Below, in pieces: positions 4,630-22,532 of a stretch of 64,000 nt of DNA. Position numbers and translations under genes: made by a program. Source of the stretch: Clostridiales bacterium (GTDB taxonomy: Bacteria > Bacillota > Clostridia > Lachnospirales > Lachnospiraceae); NCBI GenBank assembly GCA_020860715.1, contig JAJBTU010000013.1, positions 1 through 64,000 of the forward strand, read 5' to 3'. Below the pieces are notes generated by a model that saw only the letters and a program-made list of their open reading frames with translations, did no database searches and was not told the origin of the DNA. The first letter of the stretch is position 1. Every line of letters begins with the position of its first letter.

Positions 4630-4693
4630 CTCCGTGAAATGGCGGTGATTTCGCGGTATTCAGGTACACGATTTCCACCGCCTTTTCACGGAG
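4630..4693. repeat. Long imperfect inverted repeat upstream of the flippase gene
   Basis: Arms of 18 bases (4630-4647 and 4676-4693) match at 17 positions around a 28-base loop. Beyond the arms the flanks stay weakly complementary, and a copy of GGAGCGGTC occurs outside each end (4606 and 4690). The structure lies in the untranslated stretch just upstream of the flippase start. There is no T-run, so it is not a plain terminator. It could be an mRNA processing or stability hairpin, or the trace of a small mobile element. Confidence 0.6.
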
Positions 4694-4705
4694 CGGTCCC
4701 AGCTT

Positions 4706-4873: not shown

Positions 4874-5001
4874 ATATTTAATATTTCTGATCTTTTTTAT
4901 TTCTCTTTTTTATTTCTCTTTTTGCTTCCTCTGTATCTCGAAAAAAAATATAAATTATTCAGAAAACATATTGACTCATGAAATTAATTTTCATTGCTAC
5001 C

Positions 5002-6078: not shown

Positions 6079-6081
6079 CTT

Positions 6082-7017: not shown

Positions 7018-7045
7018 CTGATAATAACTACTCCCGACAAATATA

Positions 7046-7547: not shown

Positions 7548-8315
7548 TTATATATATTCCCCTGCATTTATCCGCAGCGTACTCCCCGTCATCATGGAGC
7601 TTGCATCGGACAGCATATAGACAATACCTTCAATATAATCATTTCTCTCGCACATCCGCCCCATCGGTAAGATTCCGGCAGCTTCTTTTCTAAGCTCTGC
7701 TTCCGTCATACCCTGTGTCTTACGGAATGCCACTTCACCTTCGGTCGGCGTCCAGCCAAGCACGAGGTAATTACAGCGAATCTGCTCCGAAGCATAGTTG
7801 TGAGCGATATGCTCCATCAGTGTCCGCAACACACCCTTTGAACAGGCGTAAGCACATCGGTCTTTTTGGCCTCCCCAAGCATGGGTAGAACCTGTCAGGA
7901 CGATAGAACCTTTCCCATTCATCCTCATGTACTTGATGGCGCTCTGGCAGCAGAAAAATGCAGCTTTAAAGTTGATGTCCATAATCGCATCAAATGTCTC
8001 TTCATCACAGGTGTCCAGACCGGATACCGGCGTTACACCGGAATAATTGAAAAATCCGTCAATCTTCCCGAACTTCTCATATGCCTGGTCAAACAGTTTT
8101 GCGCAATCCTTAATGTCCGTCAGTTCCGTGTGTACAAACAAACCATCGCTTCCATATGTACGCATCAACCGAATGGATTCCTTTGCGGCTTTCTCGTCAC
8201 GGCCGCCAATTACAACTTTTGCACCCCTTAAAGCACACTCTTCCGCCATTGTCTTGCCGACGCCTTTTGTGCCGCCCGAAATTACAATGACCTTATCTTT
8301 TAATACTTTCTCCAT
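7548..8315 (-). CDS. SDR-family oxidoreductase
   Basis: A classical short-chain dehydrogenase/reductase of 255 aa. The cofactor motif GGTKGVGK lies near residue 14, the NAG-type position reads NYSG, and the catalytic Ser and Tyr-x3-Lys are in LTGSTHA and YACSKG near residue 160. It uses NAD(P)(H) on an alcohol or ketone. The start is 1 base past the stop of the ATP-grasp gene, so the two are tightly coupled and probably act on one substrate. The substrate is not known. It differs clearly from the second, FabG-like SDR at 17.2 kb. Confidence 0.87.
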   Translation of the reverse strand: MEKVLKDKVIVISGGTKGVGKTMAEECALRGAKVVIGGRDEKAAKESIRLMRTYGSDGLFVHTELTDIKDCAKLFDQAYEKFGKIDGFFNYSGVTPVSGLDTCDEETFDAIMDINFKAAFFCCQSAIKYMRMNGKGSIVLTGSTHAWGGQKDRCAYACSKGVLRTLMEHIAHNYASEQIRCNYLVLGWTPTEGEVAFRKTQGMTEAELRKEAAGILPMGRMCERNDYIEGIVYMLSDASSMMTGSTLRINAGEYI

Positions 8316-8316
8316 A

Positions 8317-9624
8317 TTACTGCCCCGCTGACTTTTCTAACTCCAATGCCTTGTCTACATCAAACCCTTTCAGCAGCATACTGTTCCCGGCTTCACCGTA
8401 AACTTTTACAGTGTCCATATAATATTTCAGCTTCTCAGCCAGCTCCGCCCTCGAGTCGCAGACCAGATACATACGGGTCAGCACCTGTTTTTCGTTTCCA
8501 ATCCACTCAGGCAGAACCGCATCCCCTTCATGAAGGCGCTGGATGTTGTCAACTACGCATGCATCCGCTTCTGCTTCCTTCAAACCTTCAATCTTTGCAA
8601 TCTTGCCTTCTTTAAGGAGGAACCATAGGGTTGCTGCCCATTTGCCGCGCAGATAGGTATCATCCGCTTCTTTCAGGTCGATGTCTCCCTCTGAACCGGT
8701 TAATGCGAAGCGAATCAGCATCTCTCGCTGATCGAATCCGTGAATCGCCTTCATCAAAAGATGAGGTGCTTCTCCCTGGAGACGGAAGCCTGTGTCGTAC
8801 ACATAAAACTCCCCGTCCTCATAGAAACCGGAAAGCATCAGAACGCCATTGCGAATGCCGATGTCACTGAAAAGCCTAACCGCGTTCTCATGCATACGTT
8901 CAAAGTACTCATTCAGATGTTTGGACGGATATGTTCCGCCCAGGCAGACACGGCTAAGCCCCGGCTGCTCATCTGTTGTATAACGGTCATAGATACAGGA
9001 TGCACTGCAATATCCATCCTTGAATGTGTAATACATTCCCATGTCATCGCACTGCATATACTTCTCAACAATGAAGCGCTTTTTGTTCGATGCTTCCAGT
9101 GCCTTTTCTACCGCCGGGCGGAGTTCTGCCTCGTTGTATACGACTGTCATCCCGACACCACCGCCGTTATCGACTGGCTTGATCATGACGGGGTACTGAA
9201 TCTTATCAATGTCCTCCTGCTTCATAGAAGCATCCAGGTAATACTCCGGAATCCCATGAACACCATACCGCTCACAGGTAGCCTTGAACACATCCTTAAA
9301 TGCGAACACGTCCACGATCTTCTGCGTCGCATAGCAGGGCAGGTCAAGAGCATCGCAGACCTTGCAGTATGCCGGTACAAGAATGTCCGCCACGCCAACG
9401 AGAACACCGTCTACTTTTTCTTCCCTTGCCAAAGCAACAAGTCCCGGAACGTCCATGCCATCTACATCGTAGCTTTTCCATGCCACCTTTTTGGCGGCAT
9501 CCGTATGCCTTGCGCTGCTGACGATGGTCAGGATTCCCATATTGTTTGCTATTTCAACCAGAGGCACTGTCTCCGGATTACCGCCAAGGATTAATAATTT
9601 TTTTCCTTCAAACTCTCTGTTCAT
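8317..9624 (-). CDS. ATP-grasp ligase
   Basis: A 435-aa protein with an N-terminal Rossmann-like pre-ATP-grasp domain (KLLILGGNPETVPLV). The ATP-grasp core follows: YPVMIKPVDNGGGVGMTVV near residue 145 and FIVEKYMQCDD near residue 190. Family members (PurT, carbamoyl-phosphate synthase and BL00235-type relatives) activate a carboxylate as acyl-phosphate and join it to an amine or thiol. In this operon it could attach an amino acid or an acid to an amino sugar. That is inference from context. The SDR gene follows almost without gap. Confidence 0.85.
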   Translation of the reverse strand: MNREFEGKKLLILGGNPETVPLVEIANNMGILTIVSSARHTDAAKKVAWKSYDVDGMDVPGLVALAREEKVDGVLVGVADILVPAYCKVCDALDLPCYATQKIVDVFAFKDVFKATCERYGVHGIPEYYLDASMKQEDIDKIQYPVMIKPVDNGGGVGMTVVYNEAELRPAVEKALEASNKKRFIVEKYMQCDDMGMYYTFKDGYCSASCIYDRYTTDEQPGLSRVCLGGTYPSKHLNEYFERMHENAVRLFSDIGIRNGVLMLSGFYEDGEFYVYDTGFRLQGEAPHLLMKAIHGFDQREMLIRFALTGSEGDIDLKEADDTYLRGKWAATLWFLLKEGKIAKIEGLKEAEADACVVDNIQRLHEGDAVLPEWIGNEKQVLTRMYLVCDSRAELAEKLKYYMDTVKVYGEAGNSMLLKGFDVDKALELEKSAGQ

Positions 9625-9667
9625 AGTCGTTCTCCTCTTTGCTTGTGTCTTTACAATGTCGGTGTGT

Positions 9668-10435
9668 TCACAGTGCCAGCATTTCGCCCTGTGTCATAAT
9701 AAGGAACTTATTATCCGGATACTGCTCCCTCATGATGTCAAAGAATTTCCCTGGATTCCCGCCATGTGAAGCAAACATCCCATAGTGACATGGAATCGTA
9801 ATCCCCGGCTTCAGAGTGCCGCTTAATTCCGCACATTCCTGCTCGTTCATATTTCCGTATGCACCATTGATGGGAGCGATCATCACATCAAGTTTTCCCT
9901 TTGACAAATATTCCTCTTTTCTGTCCAGCCGCAGGCAGGTATCACCGGCTTCCATGACGCGTTTTCCATCCACTGTAACGATTACACCCACAGCGTCAGG
10001 TGCTCCGTTTCCATGGTCACAGTTGATAAAATCAAGTTTGAAATCTCCTGCCGTGCAACTGTCCCCCGGTTTCACATATGTAATACCGATATTTGACATT
10101 TCAAGCCGCTTCACATCCTTCTCGCAGTCAACCGATGCAAAAAGCTTTGTCCTGCCATTCGCCATAAGTTCCGGAATGATATCCGGGTCAAAATGATCCC
10201 TGTGAGGGTGCGTGGCTATGACGACATCAAACTCTAGGTCGTAGGCACCCTGTATTTTAGGCAGCATACGTTTATAACCCATATGCCCCTCAATCCGTTC
10301 CACGCTGTCGGACAGATACAAATCAATTCCTAACAGCTGGCCGCTTTTGCTTTTTAGAATGTACCCGGCTTGTCCGATGGAAAACAGATATGTCCTCCCA
10401 AGCGGAGCCGTAAGCACCTTTTTCGCAAAATCCAT
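9668..10435 (-). CDS. MBL-fold metallo-hydrolase
   Basis: A metallo-beta-lactamase-fold protein of 255 aa. The zinc motif HPHRDHFD lies near residue 80. Further metal ligands are suggested by MEAGDTCLR and by the histidine in TIPCHYGMF. It resembles UlaG-type lactonase/phosphodiesterase relatives rather than beta-lactamases. Cytoplasmic, as no signal peptide is seen. Within the operon it might hydrolyse a thioester, lactone or ester made by the acyl module, but the reaction cannot be read from sequence. Confidence 0.83.
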   Translation of the reverse strand: MDFAKKVLTAPLGRTYLFSIGQAGYILKSKSGQLLGIDLYLSDSVERIEGHMGYKRMLPKIQGAYDLEFDVVIATHPHRDHFDPDIIPELMANGRTKLFASVDCEKDVKRLEMSNIGITYVKPGDSCTAGDFKLDFINCDHGNGAPDAVGVIVTVDGKRVMEAGDTCLRLDRKEEYLSKGKLDVMIAPINGAYGNMNEQECAELSGTLKPGITIPCHYGMFASHGGNPGKFFDIMREQYPDNKFLIMTQGEMLAL

Positions 10436-10446
10436 ACACTCTCACC

Positions 10447-11688
10447 TCACTCGTTTTTGTATAAGTACTGCTGCAATAAAAATTTCCTGATATTCTCCGG
10501 ACACTTTACTGATAATATTTTTTTGGGAGATATCCCGCAATCTATAAGCCTGTCCGTGATTTTCTCCGCAACATTGCAGTCTACTGCAGCAATGAGGATA
10601 TAATCAAAATCAGTCCTTACTACGCTTTCGACGGGGTCAACATCCATGCAGCACCTTCTGTACTCCCAGTAGTCATCATCGATCCAGCCAACCACTGTAC
10701 AATGATCTCCCTCGTCGAGCCGATTCTTAAGCTGCTGCCCAAATGTGCCTGCGCTGTAGATAATTACCTTTTTCCCATAATAGGAATCGTCAAATGTGGA
10801 ATAGCTGCTCTCCGCATTTCCCGGCAATCTTCCGCCCGAACGCATAATGCAGATGCCAAGGATATATTCGTCAAACTGCTTCTGCAGGCCATACTCATTG
10901 TCTGCATCCAACTCTTTTGCACATCTGCTCATATATTCATGCAGGTACCGGAGCCTCTCGGCTTCGCTGGCAAAAGAGCCACATTTCTTCAGCATGGAGT
11001 CTTCCCTCTGCCGATAGTGGTACGCACTGCTGTCTATCACACAAACCCTTTGGCTCTCCATCAGCACCGGATAGGTAACCGCCGCATCTTCGCCAATCGT
11101 AATCCGCTCATCTACAGCCATCTGATACCTGTAAAGAAGCGATCTTTTGAAGAGTTTATTCCAGACATATGTGGTGATGCCCGGCTTGTAAAACGCTCCA
11201 TAGGAAACCATGTTCTTTTTTATGTTCGCAAGATTATCACCTTCGTATATACCGCAGGGTATATAATTTGTGAAGTGAACGCACTTGTTAAACAGTTCCC
11301 TGCTTTGGCCCGCACAGACTACATCAGCGTCAGAGGATGCGATCGCCGTATAAAGGGAATCATAAAATCCGGTCCCTATCCAGTCATCTCCATCTACGTA
11401 GCCCACATACTCTCCATGAGACAGTTCAAGACCGGCTTTTCTTGCTGACACAAGCCCGCCATTTGTTTTATGTATTACTTTGATGCGGGCATCCTTCCTG
11501 GCGTAAAGGTCACAGATTTCCGGACATCGGTCAGGAGAGCCATCCTCTACTAAAATGATTTCCAGATTCTTATACGTCTGGTTTATGATGCTTTCAATGC
11601 AAAGACCGATGTATCGTTCTATTCCATATATCGGAACTATGACACTTATGAGCGGCGGATTTATTCTATTATTTGATTTCTTTGCCAT
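10447..11688 (-). CDS. Glycosyltransferase family 2 with C-terminal Rossmann-like domain
   Basis: The N-terminal GT-A domain shows VIVPIYGIERYIGLC, VEDGSPDRCPEIC and YVDGDDW, as in CpsIV/EpsJ-type transferases. After about residue 310 a second domain begins with KKVIIYSAGTFGQQL and contains VVGWIDDDYWEY. It looks like the small nucleotide-binding domain often attached to family 2 transferases in Clostridia. The ATG at 11688 is chosen because AGGAG lies 7-8 bases upstream. An in-frame ATG at 11724 has no good binding site. The sugar transferred is unknown. Confidence 0.85.
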   Translation of the reverse strand: MAKKSNNRINPPLISVIVPIYGIERYIGLCIESIINQTYKNLEIILVEDGSPDRCPEICDLYARKDARIKVIHKTNGGLVSARKAGLELSHGEYVGYVDGDDWIGTGFYDSLYTAIASSDADVVCAGQSRELFNKCVHFTNYIPCGIYEGDNLANIKKNMVSYGAFYKPGITTYVWNKLFKRSLLYRYQMAVDERITIGEDAAVTYPVLMESQRVCVIDSSAYHYRQREDSMLKKCGSFASEAERLRYLHEYMSRCAKELDADNEYGLQKQFDEYILGICIMRSGGRLPGNAESSYSTFDDSYYGKKVIIYSAGTFGQQLKNRLDEGDHCTVVGWIDDDYWEYRRCCMDVDPVESVVRTDFDYILIAAVDCNVAEKITDRLIDCGISPKKILSVKCPENIRKFLLQQYLYKNE

Positions 11689-11724
11689 CTCGCCGCTCCT
11701 TTCCTGCAATTTATAAAACATCAT

Positions 11725-12378
11725 TTATAAAATTTCCCGAATAACCATAAATGCCTCCGCGTATCCTACACATACTGTGCTTCCGCGATGCATCGCCAAT
11801 GCCCTGATTGCTTCTAATGAGCGTGGGTGTGGATATTCACAAAGCTGACTGGCGTGGCATTTCATTGCTTCCAGCTTCAGTTCAATTTCATCAGTAATAT
11901 CATTATAAACAGTTGGGATAAAAGCGTTGTCAACGCAAGGAGTATTCCATTCAGTTTCGGAAAGTGTCTCATATGCATAAATTGCCTTTAACTGCGGACA
12001 ACTAACCGGACGCAACGCAACCATAGCAGCCTCAATCACCATTCTGTGATCAATATGCATATCCCCCTTGTGTGGAATAAAAACTATCTCTGGACTTATT
12101 TTCTGTACCATTTGCAAAAATCTGGCATTCAATTCTCTGGTCTGCATCTCCCTCAGGCCAACGACCGGAAGATCCATAAATACTGTCTGAGCTACGCCCA
12201 ATATAGAATGGGATTCTTTTGCTTCCCGTTTCTGTAATTGTACAACTGGATCCTTAAGATCACCTGCTGTCACTTCACATACAATTACTTCATTGCCATC
12301 CTTTGCATATTTGGCTATCGTTCCTCCGCACCCCAGTACTTCATCATCATTATGCGGAGCGATTATCAATATCCTCAT
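11725..12378 (-). CDS. PIG-L (LmbE-type) deacetylase
   Basis: This 217-aa zinc deacetylase has the metal motif APHNDDE at residues 7-13 and the second site HIDHR near residue 108. The family removes N-acetyl groups from GlcNAc-containing lipids, thiols and glycans (PIG-L, MshB, BshB). It follows the phosphoglycosyl transferase gene, so a likely substrate is an undecaprenyl-diphosphate-linked or nucleotide-linked N-acetylhexosamine, freeing an amine for later acylation. The exact substrate is inferred only from position. Confidence 0.87.
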   Translation of the reverse strand: MRILIIAPHNDDEVLGCGGTIAKYAKDGNEVIVCEVTAGDLKDPVVQLQKREAKESHSILGVAQTVFMDLPVVGLREMQTRELNARFLQMVQKISPEIVFIPHKGDMHIDHRMVIEAAMVALRPVSCPQLKAIYAYETLSETEWNTPCVDNAFIPTVYNDITDEIELKLEAMKCHASQLCEYPHPRSLEAIRALAMHRGSTVCVGYAEAFMVIREIL

Positions 12379-12416: not shown

Positions 12417-13091
12417 TCAGTAAACTTTATTTAAATTTGTTCCATCAAATTCCGCTCTGGATGCATTTTCTCTAAACTTTTCATGCTTGAAAACCGTATA
12501 AACAGCCGTGAACACCATTTTCACATCCAATGAAAAACTGACGTTTTCAACATAAAAAATATCATCCTCAAATTGTTCTCCCCAGGTTCTCATTCTGTCC
12601 AAATGTACTTTATTCTTATCCGCTCTGATACAACATAAGCCGGGTCTTACACAATGACGCATTTTATGACGCGGAGAATAAAATTCCATATATTTGCATA
12701 ACAGGGGTCTTGGACCAATAATGGACATATCTCCTTTTATTACATTAATTAATTCTGGCAATTCATCAATTGACCATTTTCTGATAAACCGGCCAAATGC
12801 CGTGAGACGTTCTGCGTCAGGAAGCAGTTCTCCGTTTTCATCCTTTGCATTCGACATGCTTCGAAATTTGTACATGTTAAAATTAACGCCATATAGTCCT
12901 GGCCGTGCCGAACAATACAAAACAGGTAAGCCTTGAAATATTACTTCCAAAACAGCTGTTATAAAAAGCACAGGGCTTAAAACAATCAATGCCAGCAGGC
13001 AAAGAATGATATCCAACATCCTCTTTATGTATTTTGTGTAAATACTGACCCGAGGTTTTACCTCCGGTTCTGCGTACATATTTTCTGTCAT
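12417..13091 (-). CDS. Monotopic phosphoglycosyl transferase, PglC/WcaJ-type initiating enzyme
   Basis: A bacterial sugar transferase (PF02397) of about 224 aa. A single N-terminal hydrophobic re-entrant segment (ILCLLALIVLSPVLFITAV) precedes the catalytic domain. KFRSM, the Asp-Glu pair in DELPELINVIKGDM and the GPRP motif are all present. It transfers a phospho-sugar from a nucleotide sugar to undecaprenyl phosphate, the first membrane step of glycan assembly. The small PglC-like size, together with PglF- and PglE-like genes upstream, suggests a bacillosamine-type donor. The start at 13091 has GAGGAG 7 bases upstream and is preferred over 13106. Confidence 0.9.
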   Translation of the reverse strand: MTENMYAEPEVKPRVSIYTKYIKRMLDIILCLLALIVLSPVLFITAVLEVIFQGLPVLYCSARPGLYGVNFNMYKFRSMSNAKDENGELLPDAERLTAFGRFIRKWSIDELPELINVIKGDMSIIGPRPLLCKYMEFYSPRHKMRHCVRPGLCCIRADKNKVHLDRMRTWGEQFEDDIFYVENVSFSLDVKMVFTAVYTVFKHEKFRENASRAEFDGTNLNKVY

Positions 13092-13106
13092 ATAAATGCT
13101 CCTCAT

Positions 13107-14342
13107 TTATCCCACCGATATCACTCTAGTCATTCGTTCAAACAGGTTATACCCGTCCCAGATCAAATCAAAATCCATCGTCTTTCCTACCGGAACGATT
13201 CGGTCAACTCCTTTGATTCCGCTTCTTAAAAGAGGCAGAAACATCTCTTTACAGCCTATGTAAGAAATTGTCTGGCATCTGGCATCATCGCAGATTTCCT
13301 GAAGTTCCATCACATCCCGGCAATCATACTCAAAAAAGTATCCCGAGTTGTCTTTCAGCTCCATCAGTTCCGAATCCAGCCTGTCCACTTTTACGCGGAC
13401 AATTCGATTATCTTCGATCCCGTCTTTGTCTGTTACCTTCCGGATATTTTCCCTTTCTGCCGCTGCCAGATATACGCTTGTCAGCTTATTCACGGCCTGT
13501 ACTCCCTGGATCTCGTATTTCTTTCTGACCAGCTTTGACAGGCTTCCCCAGAACTGCTCTTTTGCTTCCTCCGTCCGGCTTCCCATCCATATAACTGCAC
13601 GGGGGGATGTGCATGCATTCTGGTCAGTCAGGTATGTATCATTGTAAAAATCATTTGCGGTTTTTTCCCTGGAAGCGTCATTCCCGGAAACAGCTTTCAG
13701 GTAAGCATCGGAGTCTATCACTGCAAGGGAATACCGGTCCGCAAAAGTGATTTCCGCAGCCCTTGGCTTCAACGGCGACTTACGGAATTCCTGTATGGTA
13801 TTGTCCCCGCCCCAGATCACCCGCACATCGGCAAAGGATGACAGGGCATCATTGATTTCTCTTTCATGTCCATAGCGGACTAATCCTATATAGGGCCGCA
13901 TCCGCTGGATTTCCTGCAGGCTTTCCCGGACTGCCCGGTTTATAATCGTTATCTGTGGAAACTCTTTTGACGGTATCCTCACTACATTCGCATTGCCGCA
14001 GATCAAACCCGCTGCCATGGAGTAAGCATAATTTACAGGGACATTTGACGGTGCCACATGGAATGCCACCCCACGCCCCAGGTGGATTGTTTCATCCGTA
14101 AACCGTCTCCGCATCTGTTCCACTGATGCCTTCCGGATCCAAAACGCAAATGTAACCACATCCGGATATGATTTTGCTGCAGGGTCTGAAAGCAGTTTCC
14201 TTGACACGGTATTCAGGAATTCTACCGTTTCTTTTGAAAATGGTTCCTGCATGGGAATCCCCGGCATCCGGTTCAGTGTTTCCGCGCTTCCAACTTCCCA
14301 TGAAATATGAAACTGGTTAAAATCAATGTTGCTTTGCCGCAT
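13107..14342 (-). CDS. LuxC-like acyl-CoA/acyl-protein reductase
   Basis: The 411-aa protein matches the LuxC family (PF05893), an aldehyde-dehydrogenase-fold enzyme that reduces an activated fatty acid to an aldehyde with NADPH. Visible marks are VAPSNVPVNYAYSMAAGLI near residue 100, GNANVVRIPSK, and QNACTSPR near residue 240, whose cysteine fits the acylated catalytic residue. No luxAB luciferase genes are present. The neighbours instead are a LuxE-like synthetase, an AMP ligase and an ACP, so the aldehyde probably serves glycan biosynthesis. Length is slightly below that of the bioluminescence enzyme. Confidence 0.85.
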   Translation of the reverse strand: MRQSNIDFNQFHISWEVGSAETLNRMPGIPMQEPFSKETVEFLNTVSRKLLSDPAAKSYPDVVTFAFWIRKASVEQMRRRFTDETIHLGRGVAFHVAPSNVPVNYAYSMAAGLICGNANVVRIPSKEFPQITIINRAVRESLQEIQRMRPYIGLVRYGHEREINDALSSFADVRVIWGGDNTIQEFRKSPLKPRAAEITFADRYSLAVIDSDAYLKAVSGNDASREKTANDFYNDTYLTDQNACTSPRAVIWMGSRTEEAKEQFWGSLSKLVRKKYEIQGVQAVNKLTSVYLAAAERENIRKVTDKDGIEDNRIVRVKVDRLDSELMELKDNSGYFFEYDCRDVMELQEICDDARCQTISYIGCKEMFLPLLRSGIKGVDRIVPVGKTMDFDLIWDGYNLFERMTRVISVG

Positions 14343-14358
14343 TCTTTTGGATCACCTT

Positions 14359-15465
14359 TCAGTTGAATTTTGCTGCATAGGTATCGCTGCAGCCTCTGAT
14401 TTCCGCATTTTTCAGTCTGCCCAGCACTTTAAAATATTTCCCTTTCCTTCCGCATGGGCAGTCGTCTTCGCCGAGCAGGACACCCTCGTCCTCGGTCAGA
14501 AGGGAATGTCCCGGATAGGATTCCGGGAGCATGGAGAGTACCTGTATGATTCCCGGTTCGCCAACATCACAGACAGAAAAATCAGCTGCACGCCGCATGA
14601 TCACATCCGAAAATACGCTGGCGTGCAGATGGCCGCATTCGCATTCCATGTAAATACATCCGGTCTGCTCTACCATCCCATAATAATCGTGAATAGAATA
14701 CAGGCCGCAGACATCCCGCAGCCTCTGATGAAACTCCTCCGGGGAAACTGCTTCACTTATGAGTTTTTTCCAGCCGCCGCCATGAATCAGGATCCCTTTT
14801 GACAGATCGATTGTGATCCCTTCCTTTTTCAGGCCGGCCAGTTCTTTATAAAAGTGCTGCCAGATCATGAATGTAAAACCAAAAAGGAAGATTCTCTCTC
14901 CTTTGTGCTTTTCAAGAAAAGCCTTCACTGCATCCACATTCAGCTTCATATCATCATCCAGTGCATAAGTCCTGTCTGACCCGAAAATAGAAAAGCCCAG
15001 TATACCGGCACCCCTGGCAGAAAACATTGCACGGTTTTTCACTACTGACGGGCAGTCGATAATCAGCATCGGCATCCGGTTCGCCCCGGTAAATGAGGAA
15101 ACAATCCTGGCCAGGGTTTTCTGCTGGTTGTTTGCTGTGCTCCGGTCAAGATAAATCTTCGATACTGCCTGGCCCGTCGTCCCGGAAGAGGTCAGCGTCT
15201 TAAAAACCTCTCCTGGCTCCACACTGCAAAGCGGCAGTTCCTTAAACAGGCGTACCGGCAGGAACGGGATATCATAGTAGCTTCTGGCTGAATCCGGTTC
15301 ATAGCCAATGCTGTCCATCATCCGCCTGTATTCCTGGCAATGGCTCATATGAAACCCGGTCAATTCTTTCATCCGTGCAGTCAGCAGCCCTGTTTTTTCT
15401 TCTTTTCCCAATGAATAAGGAGGGATTTCGATAATCTCATTGTAATCCATGTAGCGTTTCTCCAT
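14359..15465 (-). CDS. LuxE-like acyl-protein synthetase
   Basis: A 368-aa member of the acyl-protein synthetase/LuxE family (PF04443), related to AMP-forming adenylating enzymes. The nucleotide loop is TLTSSGTTGQ near residue 90, and conserved parts include DIPFLPVRLFK near residue 65. LuxE activates a fatty acid with ATP and hands the acyl group by a cysteine to LuxC. The LuxC-like gene lies 16 bases downstream, the same order of activity as in lux operons. An in-frame ATG at 15450 has GGAG 9 bases upstream and may be the true start. Confidence 0.85.
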   Translation of the reverse strand: MEKRYMDYNEIIEIPPYSLGKEEKTGLLTARMKELTGFHMSHCQEYRRMMDSIGYEPDSARSYYDIPFLPVRLFKELPLCSVEPGEVFKTLTSSGTTGQAVSKIYLDRSTANNQQKTLARIVSSFTGANRMPMLIIDCPSVVKNRAMFSARGAGILGFSIFGSDRTYALDDDMKLNVDAVKAFLEKHKGERIFLFGFTFMIWQHFYKELAGLKKEGITIDLSKGILIHGGGWKKLISEAVSPEEFHQRLRDVCGLYSIHDYYGMVEQTGCIYMECECGHLHASVFSDVIMRRAADFSVCDVGEPGIIQVLSMLPESYPGHSLLTEDEGVLLGEDDCPCGRKGKYFKVLGRLKNAEIRGCSDTYAAKFN

Positions 15466-15522
15466 GCTTTTTCGTACATTAAAAATGCCAGCTGCAGTCT
15501 ATATCCGGTTCTTTTACAGGCG

Positions 15523-16947
15523 TCATTTATGCACTGTCCCCGTATAATACTTAGCCAGTTCTGTATACAATACTTTTCCAGAATCATTCTTCGGGATTGA
15601 CTCAAGATGCACCACCTGAAAAGCGCTGGGATTCAGGGAAGTCTTTTCTGAAATAAACTTCCGCACTTCTTCCGCTTTCGTGTCATCTGTCATAAAAATA
15701 TAAATATGATCATCCACCCCGGCGCTGGCGCAGTCCATGTAATCAAATTTTGCCTTGATCAGGCGGTCTACCTCATCAAGGTTCACGCGGTTCCCATATA
15801 CTTTCAGAAATCTCTTTTTTCTTCCTACGATGTAGTAGAACCCGTCTTCATCGCGCTTTGCCATATCACCTGTTTCCAGGCGGCCATGGCGTTCATCCCC
15901 TTTAGCAAGGTCTTCCGGACATTCCGCATATCCAAGTGTGACATTATCGCCCTCATACACCAGCTCACCGGTCACGCCTGCGTCTTCTATCACATGATTG
16001 TCTGCATCGATCAGGGAAAATTTCCCGCGGGGGACGGCGATCCCACAGCTGCCATACTTTTCAATGGCTTTTTCGTGTGGAAGATATCCCATGCGGGCCG
16101 TGGCCTCGCAGGCACCATACATGACAATAAATTTCTTCCCGTTTGCAGATGCGTACTCGGAAAATTCCTTCTGGAGTTCCGGCGACAGTTTACCGCCGGC
16201 CTGCGTCATTGTCCGAAGATGCGGGAGATCCATACGGAAGAAGCGCAGCTTTTCCAGCATCTCATATGTATACGGAACGCCCGCTATGGATGTAGCCTTC
16301 TGTTCCTTCATAAATGACCAGAATTCCCGCGTCATTACTGCCTTGTCTGTCAGCAGGATGGCTGCCCCGACATACAGGTGCGTGTTTATGACGGAACACC
16401 CGTAAGTGTAATTCATCGGCAGTGTCGTGACCGGGCGTTCTGCCTCATCCAGTCCCAGATACTCAACGATCTGCTCCGTGTTTACCCTTATATTCTTGTA
16501 GGATTGGCGCACAAATTTCTGGCTGCCTGTTGAACCGGATGTAGTCAGAAGAAGTGTCAGTTCCTCATAAAGCGGCCAGTCCCGGCCATCCGGGTTTCTC
16601 ATCAGGGAATATCCATAAGCTGAATAGACTTTTTCAAAGCTGTTATGCGCTTCTGCCTGCTTATCCGGCATCCAGACAAAAGAAGGGCGATAGGCTTTCA
16701 GCAGATTCTTGAATAGTTCACTGTCCAGATGGGCATTCAGCAGGACAGGCACAATATGATGTTCCAGGAAAGCAGCATACCCCAGCACCGAACCTATTGT
16801 GTTGCTGCACATGGAAAAGACCAGGCAGCGTTTTCCTGCTGCTTCCGCCAGTTTGTCCATCTCGGACTGCAGTCTCCCATAGGTGATACTCTGCCCGTCA
16901 TCTGATATTAATGCGGTATTATCCGCGTACTGCTTAAAATTCCACAT
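15523..16947 (-). CDS. AMP-forming acyl ligase (acyl-CoA synthetase-like)
   Basis: An ANL-superfamily enzyme of 474 aa. The P-loop TTSGSTGSQK lies near residue 135, the aromatic/acyl pocket region near YGACEATARMG, the ATP-binding ETGDMAKRDEDGFYYIVGRKKR near residue 350 with the hinge, and the C-terminal catalytic lysine in NDSGKVLY. It should activate a carboxylic acid as acyl-adenylate and load it on CoA or a carrier protein. The start lies inside the end of the ACP gene (14-base overlap), so ACP is the likely acceptor. Substrate chain length cannot be judged by eye. Confidence 0.87.
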   Translation of the reverse strand: MWNFKQYADNTALISDDGQSITYGRLQSEMDKLAEAAGKRCLVFSMCSNTIGSVLGYAAFLEHHIVPVLLNAHLDSELFKNLLKAYRPSFVWMPDKQAEAHNSFEKVYSAYGYSLMRNPDGRDWPLYEELTLLLTTSGSTGSQKFVRQSYKNIRVNTEQIVEYLGLDEAERPVTTLPMNYTYGCSVINTHLYVGAAILLTDKAVMTREFWSFMKEQKATSIAGVPYTYEMLEKLRFFRMDLPHLRTMTQAGGKLSPELQKEFSEYASANGKKFIVMYGACEATARMGYLPHEKAIEKYGSCGIAVPRGKFSLIDADNHVIEDAGVTGELVYEGDNVTLGYAECPEDLAKGDERHGRLETGDMAKRDEDGFYYIVGRKKRFLKVYGNRVNLDEVDRLIKAKFDYMDCASAGVDDHIYIFMTDDTKAEEVRKFISEKTSLNPSAFQVVHLESIPKNDSGKVLYTELAKYYTGTVHK

Positions 16948-17173
16948 CGTATTTTTCCTTCAGGATTTCCATCCCTTTTTCAAAAGAGCTAAGGTCAATG
17001 ATATCGTCCGTGTCCATCATGATGTCAAAAGTCTCTTCCAGTGAAGCAATGAGGTTCATATGCCCGACAGAATCCCATTCAGATATTCCCGTGTAGACCA
17101 GTCCTTCCGTCTGTTCCGGTGTAATATTGAGTGCCTCACAAAACGCTTTTAAATATTTTTCTTTGTTATTCAT
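16934..17173 (-). CDS. Acyl carrier protein
   Basis: A 79-aa acidic four-helix carrier protein. The phosphopantetheine attachment serine is Ser35 in SEWDSVGHMNLI, in the expected place after helix 1. The sequence differs from housekeeping AcpP, which has DSLD, and is typical of dedicated ACPs in natural-product or glycan loci. It overlaps the acyl ligase gene by 14 bases. It would carry the acyl chain between the ligase, the FabG-like reductase, LuxE/LuxC and the LpxD-like acyltransferase. A 4'-phosphopantetheinyl transferase is not encoded in the window. Confidence 0.9.
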   Translation of the reverse strand: MNNKEKYLKAFCEALNITPEQTEGLVYTGISEWDSVGHMNLIASLEETFDIMMDTDDIIDLSSFEKGMEILKEKYDVEF

Positions 17174-17219
17174 AGTATTGCTTTGCCTCCTCTTAATTTA
17201 TTAGTGATCTGTTATTTTC

Positions 17220-17966
17220 TTACAGAAACCATCCGCCATTAACACCAATGATTTCTCCTGTCACATAACTGGAAAGATCCGATGCCAAAAATACCGCTGT
17301 ATTGGCTACCTCATCAGGAGAACCCAAGCGCTTCATACCTACATCCTTTATCTGCTCTGCCACCTTTTCTTCCCCAATAGAATGGAACATGTCTGTATCA
17401 ATTTTTCCCGGTGCTATGCCATTTACCCTGATGTTGTCTTTAACCAGTTCACGTGCCCACGTTTTTGTCAGTGTGGCGACTGCTCCTTTTGAGGACGCAT
17501 ATACCGTTTGGCCTTCACTCCCCCGCAATCCAACAATCGAAGAAAGATTTATAATGCTTCCGCAACTTTCTTTTCCCATAATCTTTATTGCCATCTGCGT
17601 AACATGGATCATTGCGAAGACATTGGTCTGAAAAGTATCTTCTATTGTCTTATCATCCACCATCCCAATCAATGCATCCCGCATGACCCCGGCGTTATTA
17701 AGCAATATATCCAAACGTGCATTTTCCTTTTTAATACGCATGATTGCTTTTTTTATCTCAGCCTTATCCCTGATATCAAAATAAAGCGGCGTTACAGTTG
17801 TACTAAACTGTTCTGACAGGTACGCTGTTTCTTCATCCAACTTTCCTTCCGATCTGCAATTTGCGTATACGATTGCTCCTTCCTCTGCAAAACGTCGCAT
17901 GGAAGCCCGTCCAATCCCTTTTCCGCAGCCTGTTATCAGTGCGACCTTACCTTTTAATAGCTGCAT
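17220..17966 (-). CDS. SDR-family reductase, FabG-like
   Basis: A 248-aa short-chain reductase close in layout to 3-oxoacyl-ACP reductases. It has TGCGKGIGRAS near residue 12, LLNNAGVM near residue 90, SSIVGLRGSEGQTVYASSKGA with the Ser/Tyr/Lys triad near residues 137-155, and the FabG-type end VNGGWFL. It lies just upstream of the ACP gene in the operon. It probably reduces a 3-keto group on an ACP-bound acyl chain, which would supply a 3-hydroxyacyl-ACP for the LpxD-like enzyme. A sugar ketoreductase role is the alternative. Confidence 0.85.
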   Translation of the reverse strand: MQLLKGKVALITGCGKGIGRASMRRFAEEGAIVYANCRSEGKLDEETAYLSEQFSTTVTPLYFDIRDKAEIKKAIMRIKKENARLDILLNNAGVMRDALIGMVDDKTIEDTFQTNVFAMIHVTQMAIKIMGKESCGSIINLSSIVGLRGSEGQTVYASSKGAVATLTKTWARELVKDNIRVNGIAPGKIDTDMFHSIGEEKVAEQIKDVGMKRLGSPDEVANTAVFLASDLSSYVTGEIIGVNGGWFL

Positions 17967-17983: not shown

Positions 17984-18925
17984 CTATCTGAAAAATGCAT
18001 TTTTGAAACGTTCACCATAATATTTCGCGTTTTCCTGAACCGCCAGGCATCCCGGATCCAAATTTTTAGTAATCAACGCATTCATTCCTGTTGCCGCATC
18101 ATTTCCGACAGTCACCTGGTTTTTTATGGATGTACCGGGAGCCATCCAGACATTGTCCCCCACAACTGAACTGCCTGCCAACTGGCATCCAGAAACAATC
18201 ATCGTATTCTTCCCAATCTTTACGTTATGCGCGATATGGCACAACGTATCAATTTTCGAATCATCTCCAATCTCTGTATCGTCCAAGCAGCCTCTGGCTA
18301 TACAGGTATTTGCCCCTATCCTGACTCTAGCTCCTATCCTAACGCCGCCCAGATGTGGTACTCGGATATTAATTCCTTCTTCATCCTTATAATGTCCAAA
18401 TCCGCAGCCTCCAATAGCCACTCCTGGTTCAATAATAGAAAAGTCTCCAATCACTACATGTCCCTGAATAACAACATTCTGCAAAATCTGCACATGATTC
18501 CCTATTGTGACATCTTTTCCAACAAAAGAATGATGTCCGATATACACGTCCTGGCCAATATTTTCTGTTTCGACAATAGCCGTATTCTCAATTCCGGGGA
18601 TTCGGTTTTCCGGATCATCCTCAGCAAAAAAGCGTTGCAAAATTCTGAAAAAAGTCCGGTGTGCATTTCCCGCATAAATAACGGGAAACTGCGCACCGGG
18701 AATCTCTGCTCCCAGTTCAGCAACTAAAAGGACATCCTGCAGCCTGTTTAATTCAGTCACTGGCGTGTCCGATGCATGCCTAACCCAGGTAATGGAATTC
18801 TCCTTTAAATTACTTAACGGACAATAATTGGATATCGTAACTTCTTGATCCCATGTAAACTGATACGTAATGTTGTATTCATTTAACAATGCAATTATTT
18901 GGGCAGAACGTATTTCTTTCGTCAT
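17984..18925 (-). CDS. LpxD-like N-acyltransferase (left-handed beta-helix)
   Basis: About 313 aa, made of an N-terminal alpha/beta domain (to about residue 110), a long run of hexapeptide repeats and a short C-terminal helix. The layout is that of LpxD, which N-acylates a UDP-amino sugar with 3-hydroxyacyl-ACP. The segment LCHIAHNVKIGKN carries the histidine that acts as base in LpxD. Start 18925 has AGGAGGAG about 6 bases upstream. The longer frame to 18985 lacks a binding site. In a Gram-positive without lipid A this is unusual. With the adjoining ACP, it suggests transfer of an acyl group to the 4-amino sugar made by the two upstream enzymes. Confidence 0.83.
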   Translation of the reverse strand: MTKEIRSAQIIALLNEYNITYQFTWDQEVTISNYCPLSNLKENSITWVRHASDTPVTELNRLQDVLLVAELGAEIPGAQFPVIYAGNAHRTFFRILQRFFAEDDPENRIPGIENTAIVETENIGQDVYIGHHSFVGKDVTIGNHVQILQNVVIQGHVVIGDFSIIEPGVAIGGCGFGHYKDEEGINIRVPHLGGVRIGARVRIGANTCIARGCLDDTEIGDDSKIDTLCHIAHNVKIGKNTMIVSGCQLAGSSVVGDNVWMAPGTSIKNQVTVGNDAATGMNALITKNLDPGCLAVQENAKYYGERFKNAFFR

Positions 18926-19092: not shown

Positions 19093-20361
19093 CTATGCAA
19101 AGCATCTGTGTACGATTTCTATGATGAGGTCCTGCTGTCTGGCTGTCATTTTATTGTCGCTCGGGAGGCACAGGCCTCTTTCAAAAATATCCATCCCGAC
19201 ATCAGCCGCTCTTCCATCTTTTCCCAGCTTTCCACCGGCAATGTAGGCATTCGTCCGACCTCTGCCGTCACCTTCTCTTGTAACAAAACCATTATTCCGG
19301 TAGATCGGCTGCATATGCATCGGTTTCCAGATCGGGCGTCCTTCTGCATTGTACTTTGCCAGGGTTTCCAGGATTTCTGTCGGGCAGCTTTTTCCTTTTT
19401 CACCTATGTACAGTGCCTGCTGTTCTCCCCGGACCTGTCTGCACATGGCATCCGGATCAAGGATCATGCAGCTCAGCCAGTAATTTGGTTTGCTGTTCAC
19501 CAGATCCATCGGATTCATCTGCACCGGCAGGTCTTTAAATCCGTCCCGGTATCGCTCGTATATTGCTTTTTTCCGGACAATGTGCGTTTCCAGATACGGA
19601 AACTGCCCGCGCACGACGCCGGCGATCACATTGCTCATGCGGTAGTTATAGCCCAGCTCTTCATGCTGGTACCAGGGAGCGTTCTCACGGCTTTGAGTGG
19701 ACCATTTCCGCACCTTGTCAGCCGCTTCTTTATCGTCCGTCAGCAAGCATCCGCCAGCAGAACCGGTGATGATCTTGTTGCCATTGAAGCTGCAAACACC
19801 GATATTTCCGAAAGATCCGGTCATTTTTCCTTTGTAGGACGCCCCCAGGGATTCTGCGGCGTCTTCGATGATGACGGCGCCATGGCGGCTGCATACCGCC
19901 CGGATTTCGTCTATTTTCGCCGGCGTGCCGTAAAGATGGGCCACTACAACAACTTTCACTTCCGGATAAATCTCAAAAGCTTTCTCAAGTGCGATCGGAT
20001 CCATGTTCCAGGTATCATATTCTGTATCTATAAATATGGGGATGCCGCCTTCGTAGACAACTGGATTGACAGTCGCATCAAATGTCATATCCGAGCAGAA
20101 TACTTTATCTCGCGGCTTTACACCGGCCAGTTTCATTGCCAGATGCAGCGCCGCTGTTCCGCAGGAAAGAGCCACCGCATAGCGGCAGCCCACCTTTTCC
20201 GCGGTCAGCCGTTCTACTTCGTTGATATTCGCGCCGACCGTAGACATCCAGTTCGTTTCATATGCTTCCATTACATAGTCCATACTGTCTGCATACATCG
20301 TCGGGCTGCTCAGCCATATTTTATTGGGAAAGGCGTTCAGTTCGTTATCTGGGTTAAACAT
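19093..20361 (-). CDS. DegT/DnrJ/EryC1/StrS aminotransferase, PglE/LegC-like
   Basis: A PLP-dependent sugar aminotransferase of about 422 aa. The family features are CGTAALHLAMKLAGV near residue 70, FIEDAAESLGASYKG near residue 165, and NGNKIITGSAGG, whose lysine forms the PLP Schiff base. It would aminate the 4-keto sugar made by the upstream dehydratase, giving a 4-amino-4,6-dideoxy-hexosamine nucleotide, as PglE does. The ATG at 20361 follows AAAGGA and overlaps the end of the dehydratase gene by 8 bases. An upstream extension to 20424 lies wholly inside that gene and is unlikely. Confidence 0.9.
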   Translation of the reverse strand: MFNPDNELNAFPNKIWLSSPTMYADSMDYVMEAYETNWMSTVGANINEVERLTAEKVGCRYAVALSCGTAALHLAMKLAGVKPRDKVFCSDMTFDATVNPVVYEGGIPIFIDTEYDTWNMDPIALEKAFEIYPEVKVVVVAHLYGTPAKIDEIRAVCSRHGAVIIEDAAESLGASYKGKMTGSFGNIGVCSFNGNKIITGSAGGCLLTDDKEAADKVRKWSTQSRENAPWYQHEELGYNYRMSNVIAGVVRGQFPYLETHIVRKKAIYERYRDGFKDLPVQMNPMDLVNSKPNYWLSCMILDPDAMCRQVRGEQQALYIGEKGKSCPTEILETLAKYNAEGRPIWKPMHMQPIYRNNGFVTREGDGRGRTNAYIAGGKLGKDGRAADVGMDIFERGLCLPSDNKMTARQQDLIIEIVHRCFA

Positions 20362-22411
20362 AGTCGTTTCCTTTCGCGTCGCTTCCTGCCGGTTTTTCTC
20401 CCGCGGGATGAAAGGTGGGCACAATCTTTTCCACCATTTTCACGATATCCGGGCTGTTTTCGTAACTGGCCTGTGCAAGTCCTTCCAGCTGCTGCAGGAA
20501 TTCTTCCACATCGAATGGAATCGGTTTTCCGATAAAGATCAACTTATTGTCGGTTTTTTTGATTCCCTCTTCCGCCATTAATTTTTCTTCGTACAATTTT
20601 TCACCGGGCCTCAGTCCGGTGAAGCGCACCTCTATATCTTCGTCCGGTTTTAACCCGGAAAGTCTGATCAGATTTCTCGCGAGCGTGTCGATCCTGACCG
20701 GCTCTCCCATGTCCAGAACGAAGATTTCGCCGCCCCAGGCATTGGTTCCCGCCTGCAGCACGAGGCTGACCGCTTCCGGTATGGTCATGAAAAAGCGTTC
20801 GATTTTCGGATCTGTGACGGTGACCGGTCCGCCTTCGGCTATCTGTTTCTGGAAAAGCGGAATCACGGAACCGTTGCTTCCGAGAACATTGCCAAAACGG
20901 ACAGCAACAAACTGCGTCCCTGTCCGTTCTTTGTTCTTAACGCTCTCTATTTTCAGTGTTTCCTGCCGGGGTGTTTCTATCCCCATGTGATCAATCGGAT
21001 CGCAGATGTTCTGGCCGTCGGTCTCCTTATCATCCCTGTGCGCATGAATGAATGGCAGCAGGTCGATCCGGCCGCTCTTGCTTACGGCGTCCATGCTCTG
21101 GATGACCATCTCGCAGAGGCGCTTGGAAGCACCCATGATGTTGGTCGGGTTCACGGCCTTGTCCGTGCTGATCAGGACGAAACGCTGTGTCCCATGCGTC
21201 AATGCCGCGTAGGCCGTTTTGTAGGTGCCGATGACGTTGTTCTTGATGGCCTCGTTCGGGCTGTATTCCATCAGCGGCACGTGCTTGTGTGCCGCCGCAT
21301 GGTAAACAATATCCGGATGATAGTTCTCAAATACCTGATTGATCCTGCGGCTGTCGCGGGCGGAGCCGATCAGGACCACTAAATTCAGTTCCGGGTGCGT
21401 CCGCTTAAGTTCCTGCTCGATCGCGTAGGCATTGTTTTCATAGATATCAAATATGATCAGCTGCTTCGGCTCATGCCCCGCGATCTGCCGGCAAAGCTCG
21501 CTGCCGATGGAACCGCCGCCGCCGGTCACGAGGATGGTCTTTCCTTTTATGTACTGGAAAATCTCTGCCATATCGACCCGGATCGGTTCGCGGCCGAGAA
21601 GATCTTCTACCGCTACCGGCTTTAATCTGCTTACCAGTACTTCATCGTTGGCAAGCTGATAAATGCCCGGCAGGCTTTTCAGCCGGCATCCGGTTTCGCT
21701 GCAGATGTCCAGAATGGCTTTTTTATCTTTTGCTGAAGCGGTCGGAATGCAGAAATAGATCTGGTCGATCCCGAATTTTTTTGCGTTTGAGAGAATCACG
21801 TCCCTGCCGCCCACCACCGGGATTCCGTCGATGTAGCGGTTCCATTTGTTGGTGTTGTCGTCAATAATACAGCAGGGGGTGCATGTCATTTTTTCTGACT
21901 GGTGCAGTTCCCTTACGACATTTCGTCCGGCCGCTCCCGCGCCGATGATCATCACCCTCTGTATGTCTGCGTGTTCGTGGGTATCCTCTTTTTTCGGAAA
22001 TGCTTCTGTATATACCCGGTAGGAGAACCGCACTCCCACCACCAGGATCATCTGCATGACCGCGCCGACGATGTAATAGGAAAAAGGCATCCGTCCAGAC
22101 GCCAGCGTGATGACGGCACTGTGTGCCAGAGAGGCTGTCAGAGAAGCGCTCGCGTAGCGGATCAGTTCATGAAATCCGGCGAATCGCCAGATCCCCCGGT
22201 ACATCCGCATATAATAGAAAAATGCGACCGCCATGATCAGGTACCATGGCAGGAACCGCACAAATGCCGACATATATTCCTGCGGAATTGCGGTATAGTG
22301 AAAGTCGAATCGAAGCCAAAGTCCAAAGAACCAGGAAAAAGAGATTGCCACGATGTCATAAAGCGCCAGACAAATGGCAATCACTTTCCAGTGACTCAGT
22401 TTCATTTTCAT
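20354..22411 (-). CDS. Membrane-bound NDP-sugar 4,6-dehydratase, PglF/CapD-type
   Basis: About 685 aa. Four N-terminal membrane helices (to about residue 115) are followed by a first Rossmann domain (IIGAGAAGRNVV) and then the catalytic SDR domain (VTGGGGSIGSEL; STDKAVNPTN; RFGNVLGSNG). It converts UDP-GlcNAc to the 4-keto-6-deoxy sugar at the inner membrane face. About 50 extra residues, rich in charged and histidine residues, are inserted before RFGNVLG (around 20915-21085) compared with usual CapD proteins. The start at 22411 is preferred because the TGA of a 26-codon leader ORF overlaps it as ATGA. The frame is open up to 22513, but that part has no suitable binding site. Confidence 0.87.
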   Translation of the reverse strand: MKMKLSHWKVIAICLALYDIVAISFSWFFGLWLRFDFHYTAIPQEYMSAFVRFLPWYLIMAVAFFYYMRMYRGIWRFAGFHELIRYASASLTASLAHSAVITLASGRMPFSYYIVGAVMQMILVVGVRFSYRVYTEAFPKKEDTHEHADIQRVMIIGAGAAGRNVVRELHQSEKMTCTPCCIIDDNTNKWNRYIDGIPVVGGRDVILSNAKKFGIDQIYFCIPTASAKDKKAILDICSETGCRLKSLPGIYQLANDEVLVSRLKPVAVEDLLGREPIRVDMAEIFQYIKGKTILVTGGGGSIGSELCRQIAGHEPKQLIIFDIYENNAYAIEQELKRTHPELNLVVLIGSARDSRRINQVFENYHPDIVYHAAAHKHVPLMEYSPNEAIKNNVIGTYKTAYAALTHGTQRFVLISTDKAVNPTNIMGASKRLCEMVIQSMDAVSKSGRIDLLPFIHAHRDDKETDGQNICDPIDHMGIETPRQETLKIESVKNKERTGTQFVAVRFGNVLGSNGSVIPLFQKQIAEGGPVTVTDPKIERFFMTIPEAVSLVLQAGTNAWGGEIFVLDMGEPVRIDTLARNLIRLSGLKPDEDIEVRFTGLRPGEKLYEEKLMAEEGIKKTDNKLIFIGKPIPFDVEEFLQQLEGLAQASYENSPDIVKMVEKIVPTFHPAGEKPAGSDAKGNDYV

Positions 22412-22488
22412 ACCCTTTTTATCATAGCCGGCAGCAGACGTACCATCTGATTTCCCGCCGACATGTTCCCTTTCTTTATTTTTTCCAT
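22408..22488 (-). CDS. Possible 26-codon leader ORF coupled to the dehydratase gene
   Basis: A start ATG at 22488 stands 8 bases after GGAGGGG, the strongest Shine-Dalgarno sequence upstream of the glycan operon. The frame starts MEKIKKGNMSAG and ends RLLPAMIKRV, with its TGA overlapping the likely dehydratase start (ATGA). That arrangement is typical of translational coupling. No known peptide family is recognised. It may be translated only to drive initiation of the large gene. Confidence 0.35.
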   Translation of the reverse strand: MEKIKKGNMSAGNQMVRLLPAMIKRV

Positions 22489-22492
22489 TATA

Positions 22493-22532
22493 ATAACCCC
22501 TCCGCGCCGTCATGCAGCGCCAAAGGGGTTAT
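22493..22532 (-). promoter_or_regulatory. Hairpin covering the Shine-Dalgarno sequence of the glycan operon
   Basis: Nine-base arms, 22493-22501 and 22524-22532 (plus strand ATAACCCCT / AGGGGTTAT), pair perfectly around a 22-base loop. In the minus-strand mRNA the downstream arm contains the GGGG of the GGAGGGG binding site. Folding would therefore hide the site and limit translation of the leader ORF and the dehydratase. This is direct from the sequence; the regulatory meaning is inferred. Confidence 0.5.

Follow-up and report, generated by a model that had tools for sequence, protein, structure and literature searches.

A LuxE/LuxC module with its own carrier protein and ligase in a bacterial glycan operon, and a candidate route to N-hydroxyacyl sugars

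The tetronate pathway of Vibrio cholerae O1, encoded by rfbK/L/M/N/O, was reportedly set out in its original form by Morona et al. in 1995; we take RfbM to be an Fe-type alcohol dehydrogenase (Fe-ADH), RfbO an acyltransferase and RfbN a fusion of LuxE and LuxC. In the published text available, perosamine of this organism is described as N-acylated with 3-deoxy-L-glycero-tetronate, a 2,4-dihydroxybutyrate (PMC3441752), 2,4-dihydroxybutanoic acid is named as the acid that RfbL activates for the carrier RfbK or for coenzyme A (CoA) (PMC12208996), and RfbN is described as having a LuxE domain and acting in tetronate synthesis (PMC4772473). Similar genes occur in flagellar glycosylation islands, which in Aeromonas Group II hold an acyl carrier protein (ACP), a 3-oxoacyl-ACP reductase, an adenosine monophosphate (AMP) synthetase, luxE and luxC (98 strains; PMC7874193) and in enterobacteria include Acp (72 strains), LuxE (73), LuxC (80), CaiC (71) and FabG (71) (PMC4875605). 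In their available text both island papers offer only the guess of a liposugar for this set, and biochemical characterisation of the Aeromonas, enterobacterial or RfbN sets is not among what the sources describe there. Here we analyse a five-gene module of a short-chain dehydrogenase/reductase (SDR), an ACP, an AMP-forming ligase, LuxE and LuxC in a Clostridiales bacterium (GenBank assembly GCA_020860715.1; 2.67 Mb in 39 contigs). The module lies in the first 64,000 nucleotides of contig JAJBTU010000013.1, a stretch referred to below as the window. By a single marker, ribosomal protein L13, we regard the genome as a Lachnospiraceae-like member of Bacillota: identity is 93% to L13 of the Lachnospiraceae genome holding the related locus L001, and 79 to 84% to L13 in the genomes of loci L044, L036, L014, L020, L054 and L047. 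By analogy, it may be a split-gene counterpart of the RfbK/L/M/N/O logic yielding a short hydroxyacyl amide, a proposal that we regard as evenly balanced.

The open-licence literature on LuxE/LuxC in glycan clusters or on dihydroxybutyryl glycans yielded, in the text available, only flagellar-island and V. cholerae-related papers. A first reading of the window, made from the sequence only, had taken this exact set of genes to be without a characterised precedent; the set is in fact already listed gene for gene for the Aeromonas Group II islands (PMC7874193), and the same gene types appear in the enterobacterial ones (PMC4875605). What is new is the setting (an LpxD-like transferase, amino-sugar and sugar-transferase genes, a Lachnospiraceae-like genome), a clue pointing to a malate-type substrate, the changing partners of the module and loci with two LuxE-LuxC pairs.

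The five genes and their catalytic residues

The five open reading frames (ORFs) are all open on the minus strand and are transcribed in the order SDR, ACP, ligase, LuxE, LuxC (17966 to 13107):

17220..17966, minus strand: SDR, FabG-like reductase, 248 aa (PF13561, E 6.9e-58)
16934..17173, minus strand: dedicated ACP, 79 aa (PF00550, E 0.0046, a weak match below the Pfam cut-off)
15523..16947, minus strand: AMP-forming acyl ligase, 474 aa (PF00501, E 1e-39)
14359..15465, minus strand: LuxE acyl-protein synthetase, 368 aa (PF04443, E 3.3e-55, residues 11-367 covered)
13107..14342, minus strand: LuxC acyl reductase, 411 aa (PF05893, E 4.5e-27)

By the ORF table, 46 bp separate SDR from ACP, ACP and ligase overlap by 14 bp, 57 bp lie between ligase and LuxE and 16 bp between LuxE and LuxC, and the following sugar-transferase gene begins with no gap (0 bp). 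ORFs and Pfam matches thus agree with the sequence-only reading of five consecutive, tightly spaced or overlapping genes of these families, the sub-threshold ACP being recognised also by its invariant Ser35.

Catalytic residues were compared with those of relatives from the closest 80 of 549 loci; 100 loci (1901 proteins) served for wider probes. S143, Y156 and K160 of the SDR are invariant in 21 of 21 rows of at least 50% identity, and Ser35 of the ACP (DS motif) in 66 of 66 aligned rows, the window included in both. The ligase keeps the residues of its TSGSTGS motif, and Lys458 stands in 74 of 74 rows. LuxE matches PF04443 over its full length, and its acyl-acceptor Cys359 aligns with Cys364 of LuxE from Photobacterium phosphoreum (7xc6_E) and is invariant in all 80 rows. 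LuxC combines its PF05893 match with an aldehyde dehydrogenase-type fold and a catalytic cysteine; its fold matches that of LuxC in 7xc6 at 16% identity in the structural alignment, and a sequence search of solved structures with LuxC gave no match. Loss of the LuxC or LuxE active sites, on which the idea of a working pair would have foundered, is therefore not what these genes show. The module is real and conserved, and it is probably functional.

A light-producing role is not indicated. Beyond the LuxC fold and the LuxE cysteine shared with the lux LuxC-LuxE complex (7xc6), the locus departs from lux operons: the genome holds a single LuxE match and no luciferase (PF00296) match, which bears out the earlier statement that luxAB is absent; no thioesterase was found among the window genes scanned; and the scores lie far under the lux long-chain reductase equivalog cut-offs (37.3 against 750 bits for NF052251, 61.7 against 550 bits for NF052244). 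The solved chains nearest to the ligase are oxalate-CoA and 4-coumarate ligases, which does not decide its substrate. Elsewhere in the genome there are matches to beta-ketoacyl-ACP synthases (KAS) II and III, and three other carrier-protein matches on contigs C36, C2 and C39.

A conserved core with changing partners

Counting was confined to the 61 loci of the 80 in which a LuxE frame was called and the flanks were long enough; 14 had short flanks, and in 5 no LuxE frame was called, as the ORF caller preferred an ORF on the opposite strand. LuxC was present in 59 of the 61, the ligase in 57, the ACP in 48 and an SDR of the window type (at least 50% identity) in 15. The 80 loci come from Lachnospiraceae, Oscillospiraceae, Treponema, Salinivirgaceae, Synergistales and Alphaproteobacteria. 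Because LuxE identity across this range is still 68 to 82%, horizontal spread of the module is suggested. The ACP-ligase-LuxE-LuxC core is thus spread over several phyla, and its partners vary.

The grouping was also examined in even draws of 398 genomes from the Pseudomonadota (the phylum of genome G001) and 398 from the phylum of the window. With the window genome and G001 excluded, LuxE at 46% identity or more was found in 17 genomes (13 and 4, respectively). In all 16 of the loci retrieved from these (G152 was left out), LuxC, ligase and ACP share the strand of LuxE and are no more than about 5 kb from it, indicating that the grouping is more than chance and that homologous clusters do keep these genes together, which the sequence-only reading had made a point of; an SDR is present in 10 of the 16 and NeuB in 9. 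In five of the 16 (G345, G353, G272, G782 and G698) the aligned LuxE stretch contains one stop codon. One stop codon is likewise seen in the aligned LuxE of L095, L100, L103, L104, L149 and L150, where it may be at the gene end. In the draw from the window's phylum, 65 of 398 genomes gave matches, five of them at 50% identity or more (the window's own genome included) and one at 34% over the full length; the remainder, short or weak matches with E values no better than 1.7e-11, are probably other adenylating enzymes.

The partner genes within 5 kb of the core differ from locus to locus: a split transketolase in 24 of the 61, NeuB in 13 (seven of these with an IlvB-like thiamine pyrophosphate (TPP) enzyme) and the window-type SDR in 15, with none of the counted partners in eight. 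Partners tend to avoid one another (Fisher p = 0.0025 for SDR and transketolase, 0.026 for SDR and NeuB, 0.0099 for transketolase and NeuB, all uncorrected for relatedness). This is a tendency only; strict exclusivity was rejected, as it is broken by two of the 61 loci and by six of the 16 even-draw loci, where SDR and NeuB occur together (five loci from the Pseudomonadota, plus L180). In these six, NeuB has PseB/PseC-like genes around it and probably serves pseudaminic acid synthesis; some NeuB neighbours among the 61 loci may also be pseudaminic acid genes. When the partner label is mapped on a LuxE tree of 62 rows, 31 changes are required; shuffled labels need 34.1 on average, and 13 of 200 shuffles give a count as low. 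Partners thus appear to have been exchanged repeatedly, though the window-type SDR label taken alone shows some clustering (10 changes where shuffling gives 13.6; 2 of 500 shuffles are as low). The bootstrap of the tree had not settled.

Transketolase, NeuB and IlvB-like enzymes act on small polar aldehydes or keto acids. A further clue is a protein of the lactate/malate dehydrogenase family encoded directly after LuxC in 15 of the 80 loci, alike in those with transketolase, NeuB or SDR partners. Every full-length member of its cluster (20 of 20; one further sequence, from L012, is incomplete) has Arg where lactate dehydrogenase 3wsv has Gln; we take this Arg to mark malate dehydrogenases, which act on oxaloacetate/malate. 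Since the partners in relatives, this malate-type dehydrogenase included, handle small molecules, we favour a small substrate for the module.

Four of the 80 loci (L004, L007, L055 and L074) carry two LuxE-LuxC pairs, and all four have a split transketolase. In L004 and L074 it precedes the second pair. In L055 it adjoins the second pair, on the strand opposite to that of the main pair, and in L007 it lies between the pairs, with NeuB directly ahead of the second. Such loci allow a wider view, which we think unlikely: the core could be a general acid-to-aldehyde plug that builds sugar-like chains from small organic acids, the aldehyde being taken by an exchangeable partner, namely a reductase (as in the window), a split transketolase (adding C2), NeuB (adding C3 from phosphoenolpyruvate (PEP) and giving a new acid) or an IlvB-like enzyme. 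Two pairs would then convert acid to aldehyde in two rounds, combined with a chain extension, so that novel polyhydroxy acyl groups or sugars of bacterial surfaces could be built iteratively. If partner-swapping is real, it would offer a modular way from central metabolites to new surface sugars.

Glycan operon, proposed route and rival explanations

The module is embedded in genes of the same strand:

20354..22513, minus strand: nucleotide-sugar 4,6-dehydratase, presumably of the PglF/FlaA1 sub-family (PF02719, E 1.4e-118)
19093..20361, minus strand: DegT aminotransferase (PF01041, E 2.9e-78), its ATG overlapping the end of the PglF-like gene
17984..18925, minus strand: LpxD-like hexapeptide N-acyltransferase, 313 aa (NF002060 LpxD, E 1.9e-55 for the longer ORF, below the cut-off)
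12417..13106, minus strand: initiating phosphoglycosyl transferase, 229 aa (PF02397, E 1.8e-49), directly after the LuxC stop
11725..12378, minus strand: PIG-L family N-deacetylase (PF02585, E 7.1e-25)
7548..11724, minus strand: GT2 glycosyltransferase, metallo-beta-lactamase-fold hydrolase, ATP-grasp protein and second SDR (PF00535, PF13483, PF02786, PF13561)
1953..7516, minus strand: acetyltransferase, two glycosyltransferases, Wzx-type flippase and polysaccharide pyruvyl transferase (PF00132, PF00535, PF00534, PF01943, PF04230)

PglF-like, DegT, sugar-transferase, glycosyltransferase and flippase neighbours agree with the earlier view that a surface-glycan operon houses the LuxE/LuxC pair and its dedicated ACP and ligase; the genes at 1953..7516 are the remainder of that operon. 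The genes at 7548..11724 run in the same direction as the module, a role in which is unproven for them. The LpxD-like gene was started at ATG 18925 for the AGGAGG that precedes it; its longest ORF begins at GTG 18985. Its product belongs to the LpxD sequence family (alignment with E. coli LpxD 3eh0, E 3.9e-26) and places His233 at the position of His239, presumably the catalytic residue there, and it misses both LpxD cut-offs (188.4 against 207 bits; 171.9 against 242.5 bits). As the genome has no LpxC match, a role in lipid A is unlikely and was rejected. The PIG-L protein is a possible partner of the N-acyltransferase.

The order DegT, hexapeptide transferase, two SDRs, ACP, ligase, LuxE, LuxC and sugar transferase recurs in L079 and L041, in the latter with PIG-L after DegT; neither transferase is close to that of the window (23% identity in L041; 32% along part of the protein in L079). 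A candidate amino-sugar N-acyltransferase of hexapeptide or GNAT type lies within 6 kb in 35 of the 61 loci, and in 9 of 14 of the window-type SDR group. PIG-L relatives in 7 of the 100 loci are consistent with a deacetylate-and-reacylate chemistry in a minority of them.

In the route that we propose, LuxE would convert a single carboxylate of a small (di)acid, with malate the most likely candidate, to the acyl-AMP and then keep the acyl group on Cys359; LuxC would accept it on Cys244 and reduce it with NAD(P)H to the semialdehyde, which the SDR would turn into a hydroxy acid. The AMP ligase would load this acid onto the dedicated ACP, and the LpxD-like transferase would use the hydroxyacyl group to form an amide with the amino group of a uridine diphosphate (UDP)-sugar, either made through PglF/DegT or freed by PIG-L. 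The adjacent sugar transferase would then put the N-hydroxyacyl sugar on the lipid carrier and start the glycan. Substrate, direction of flow and every reaction of this route are predictions from the genes and their relatives. An amide on an amino sugar is proposed because of the flanking N-acyltransferase, and N-acyl transfer is the likely end point of the module; that malate is converted exactly to 2,4-dihydroxybutyrate is a tentative, indeed doubtful, specification.

The set of ACP, ligase, LuxE/LuxC reductase and acyltransferase adjoining amino-sugar genes is that of the RfbK-O type, and V. cholerae O1, as described in the text available, shares with the window a carrier protein, an AMP ligase, a LuxE-bearing reductase and N-acylation of an amino sugar. 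The window differs in its split LuxE and LuxC genes, in an SDR where RfbK-O has the Fe-ADH, in the LpxD-like transferase, in the Wzx-type glycan operon and in a genome without an LpxC match. With the flagellin glycosylation islands it shares contiguous ACP, SDR, ligase, LuxE and LuxC; unlike them, it sits with PglF, DegT and sugar-transferase genes in a genome without a flagellin (PF00669) match, on which ground a flagellar role in the source genome was rejected. The flagellar-island type of set occurs together with NeuB and DegT in L132, L133, L134, L137 and L138, with Maf also in L137. In the available text on Shewanella oneidensis, sfmABCDE includes NeuB, IlvB-like, SDR and ATP-grasp genes that resemble partners in the relatives, and LuxE/LuxC are not among its five described genes (PMC3765264).

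Several points weigh against the proposed route. FabG-like SDRs mostly reduce ketones, not aldehydes, and the likeness to RfbN is one of published description. DegT and the LpxD-like gene are 167 bp apart, and in L041 a helicase gene, with no PglF gene, precedes DegT. Met290 of E. coli LpxD, which presumably limits chain length, is replaced by Ala in the window transferase by the 3eh0 alignment, so that the transferase itself is no argument for a short chain. As to the malate clue, the closest solved relative of the dehydrogenase (1y6j) has the same Arg and is labelled a lactate dehydrogenase, the single member scanned passes the NCBIfam L-LDH cut-off, and no copy was found among the window genes scanned. 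KAS-III-like proteins (FabH probe) in 6 of the 100 loci, all within the 80 (L003, L012, L038, L050, L071 and L074), suggest that some members may build a chain on the ACP. Finally, a thioesterase lies between ligase and LuxE in 19 of the 80 loci (strict spacing; its cluster is found in 36 loci), which suggests a lux-like flow from ligase through ACP, thioesterase and LuxE to LuxC.

Under such a flow the ligase and ACP would supply an acyl group from which LuxE and LuxC make a fatty aldehyde or alcohol for a lipid-like decoration of the glycan. LuxE and LuxC of lux operons are established to make a long-chain aldehyde and LpxD to handle long 3-hydroxyacyl-ACP, and the liposugar of both island papers (PMC7874193, PMC4875605) points the same way as the thioesterase. 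We consider this explanation unlikely. A single FabF probe from the source genome found no KAS-II among the 1901 proteins, a search without a positive control among the loci, and the reading as fatty-acid synthesis was set aside on this ground, though not absolutely given the KAS-III-like genes. The partners in relatives speak for small polar substrates, and no lipid-like mass on Aeromonas flagellin glycan is described in the text available. The long-chain or imine-linked acyl group of the sequence-only reading is disfavoured in the same way by the small-molecule enzymes and by an N-acyltransferase pointing to an amide, neither reading being proven.

Two branches could also run in one operon, ligase, ACP and SDR making a 3-hydroxyacyl-ACP (for example 3-hydroxybutyryl) for the LpxD-like transferase while the LuxE/LuxC aldehyde goes elsewhere. 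FabG-like SDRs classically reduce 3-ketoacyl-ACP, the SDR gene is placed between the transferase and ACP genes, and N-3-hydroxybutyryl amino sugars are known; we nevertheless hold this to be distinctly unlikely, since ACP and ligase track LuxE/LuxC and not the SDR in the counts for the 61 loci. That the aldehyde is transaminated to an amine, or that a NeuB from another part of the cell joins it to PEP to give a nonulosonic-type sugar, would suit the frequent DegT and NeuB neighbours in relatives and is very unlikely for the window: no NeuB or TPP enzyme was found among its scanned genes, the NeuB search not extending to the whole genome, and its DegT gene pairs with a PglF-type dehydratase, the usual amino-sugar pair.

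If the short hydroxyacyl amide proposal is true, the 'fatty acid' genes of flagellar and polysaccharide islands would be explained as makers of short hydroxy-acid amides, and LuxE/LuxC would be recast as enzymes used in glycan chemistry far beyond light. A dihydroxybutyryl residue (C4H6O3) has by arithmetic a mass of 102.03 Da, and the Group II strain Aeromonas piscicola AH-3 is described as carrying an unexplained 102 Da group on its flagellin glycan, the text available giving neither an accurate mass nor a luxC mutant (PMC7874193). By analogy this group could, speculatively, be dihydroxybutyryl, and the proposal, if true, would give it a testable identity (+102.03 Da). A 376 Da pseudaminic derivative of Aeromonas was dropped as evidence, because the same mass reportedly occurs in a strain whose island lacks LuxE/LuxC.

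Fused reductases and further observations

In favour of the parallel to RfbN, LuxE and LuxC lie in one open frame in 6 of the 80 loci, both domains being recognised by Pfam in the L041 frame. Fusions of about 820 aa occur in 6 of the 398 Pseudomonadota genomes at 36 to 37% LuxE identity (both domains by Pfam in L121). An Fe-ADH gene, of the type ascribed to RfbM, stands beside four of the six (L121 to L124, frame-split in L122), and the other two (L125, L126) end at a contig edge there. Fe-ADH also adjoins the module of L140, a locus cut at its end, and L053 has a weak Fe-ADH match. The fused protein of L125 and L126 (825 aa) stands at the end of its contig. In L126, the 5 kb after it hold two nitrogenase component 1-type genes and, behind these, a homocitrate synthase-like gene.

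Judged by record names, L018 and L066 come from one assembly, as do L026 and L038; in each case the two LuxE modules are separate and lie on different contigs. L083, on a Rhizobium anhuiense plasmid, groups transketolase halves, an LpxA-like acyltransferase, a 79-aa protein, ligase, glycosyltransferase, DegT, LuxE and LuxC, together with SDR, glucose-methanol-choline (GMC) oxidoreductase and FabZ genes; the stretch shows no wider polysaccharide operon.

Within the window, the second SDR (255 aa), the ATP-grasp protein (435 aa) and the metallo-beta-lactamase-fold protein are grouped at 7548-10435 (minus strand). The first two resemble in size SO_3263 and SO_3265 of Shewanella (255 and 412 aa in the text available), a hint of a second decoration pathway. 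G+C is 0.31-0.38 in positions 1-8000, within the glycan operon, against 0.43-0.57 elsewhere, and the glycosyltransferase and LuxE/LuxC ends may therefore have different origins. At 28402-29739 (minus strand) lies a gene for a 445-aa protein that matches DUF2963 and RHS repeats.

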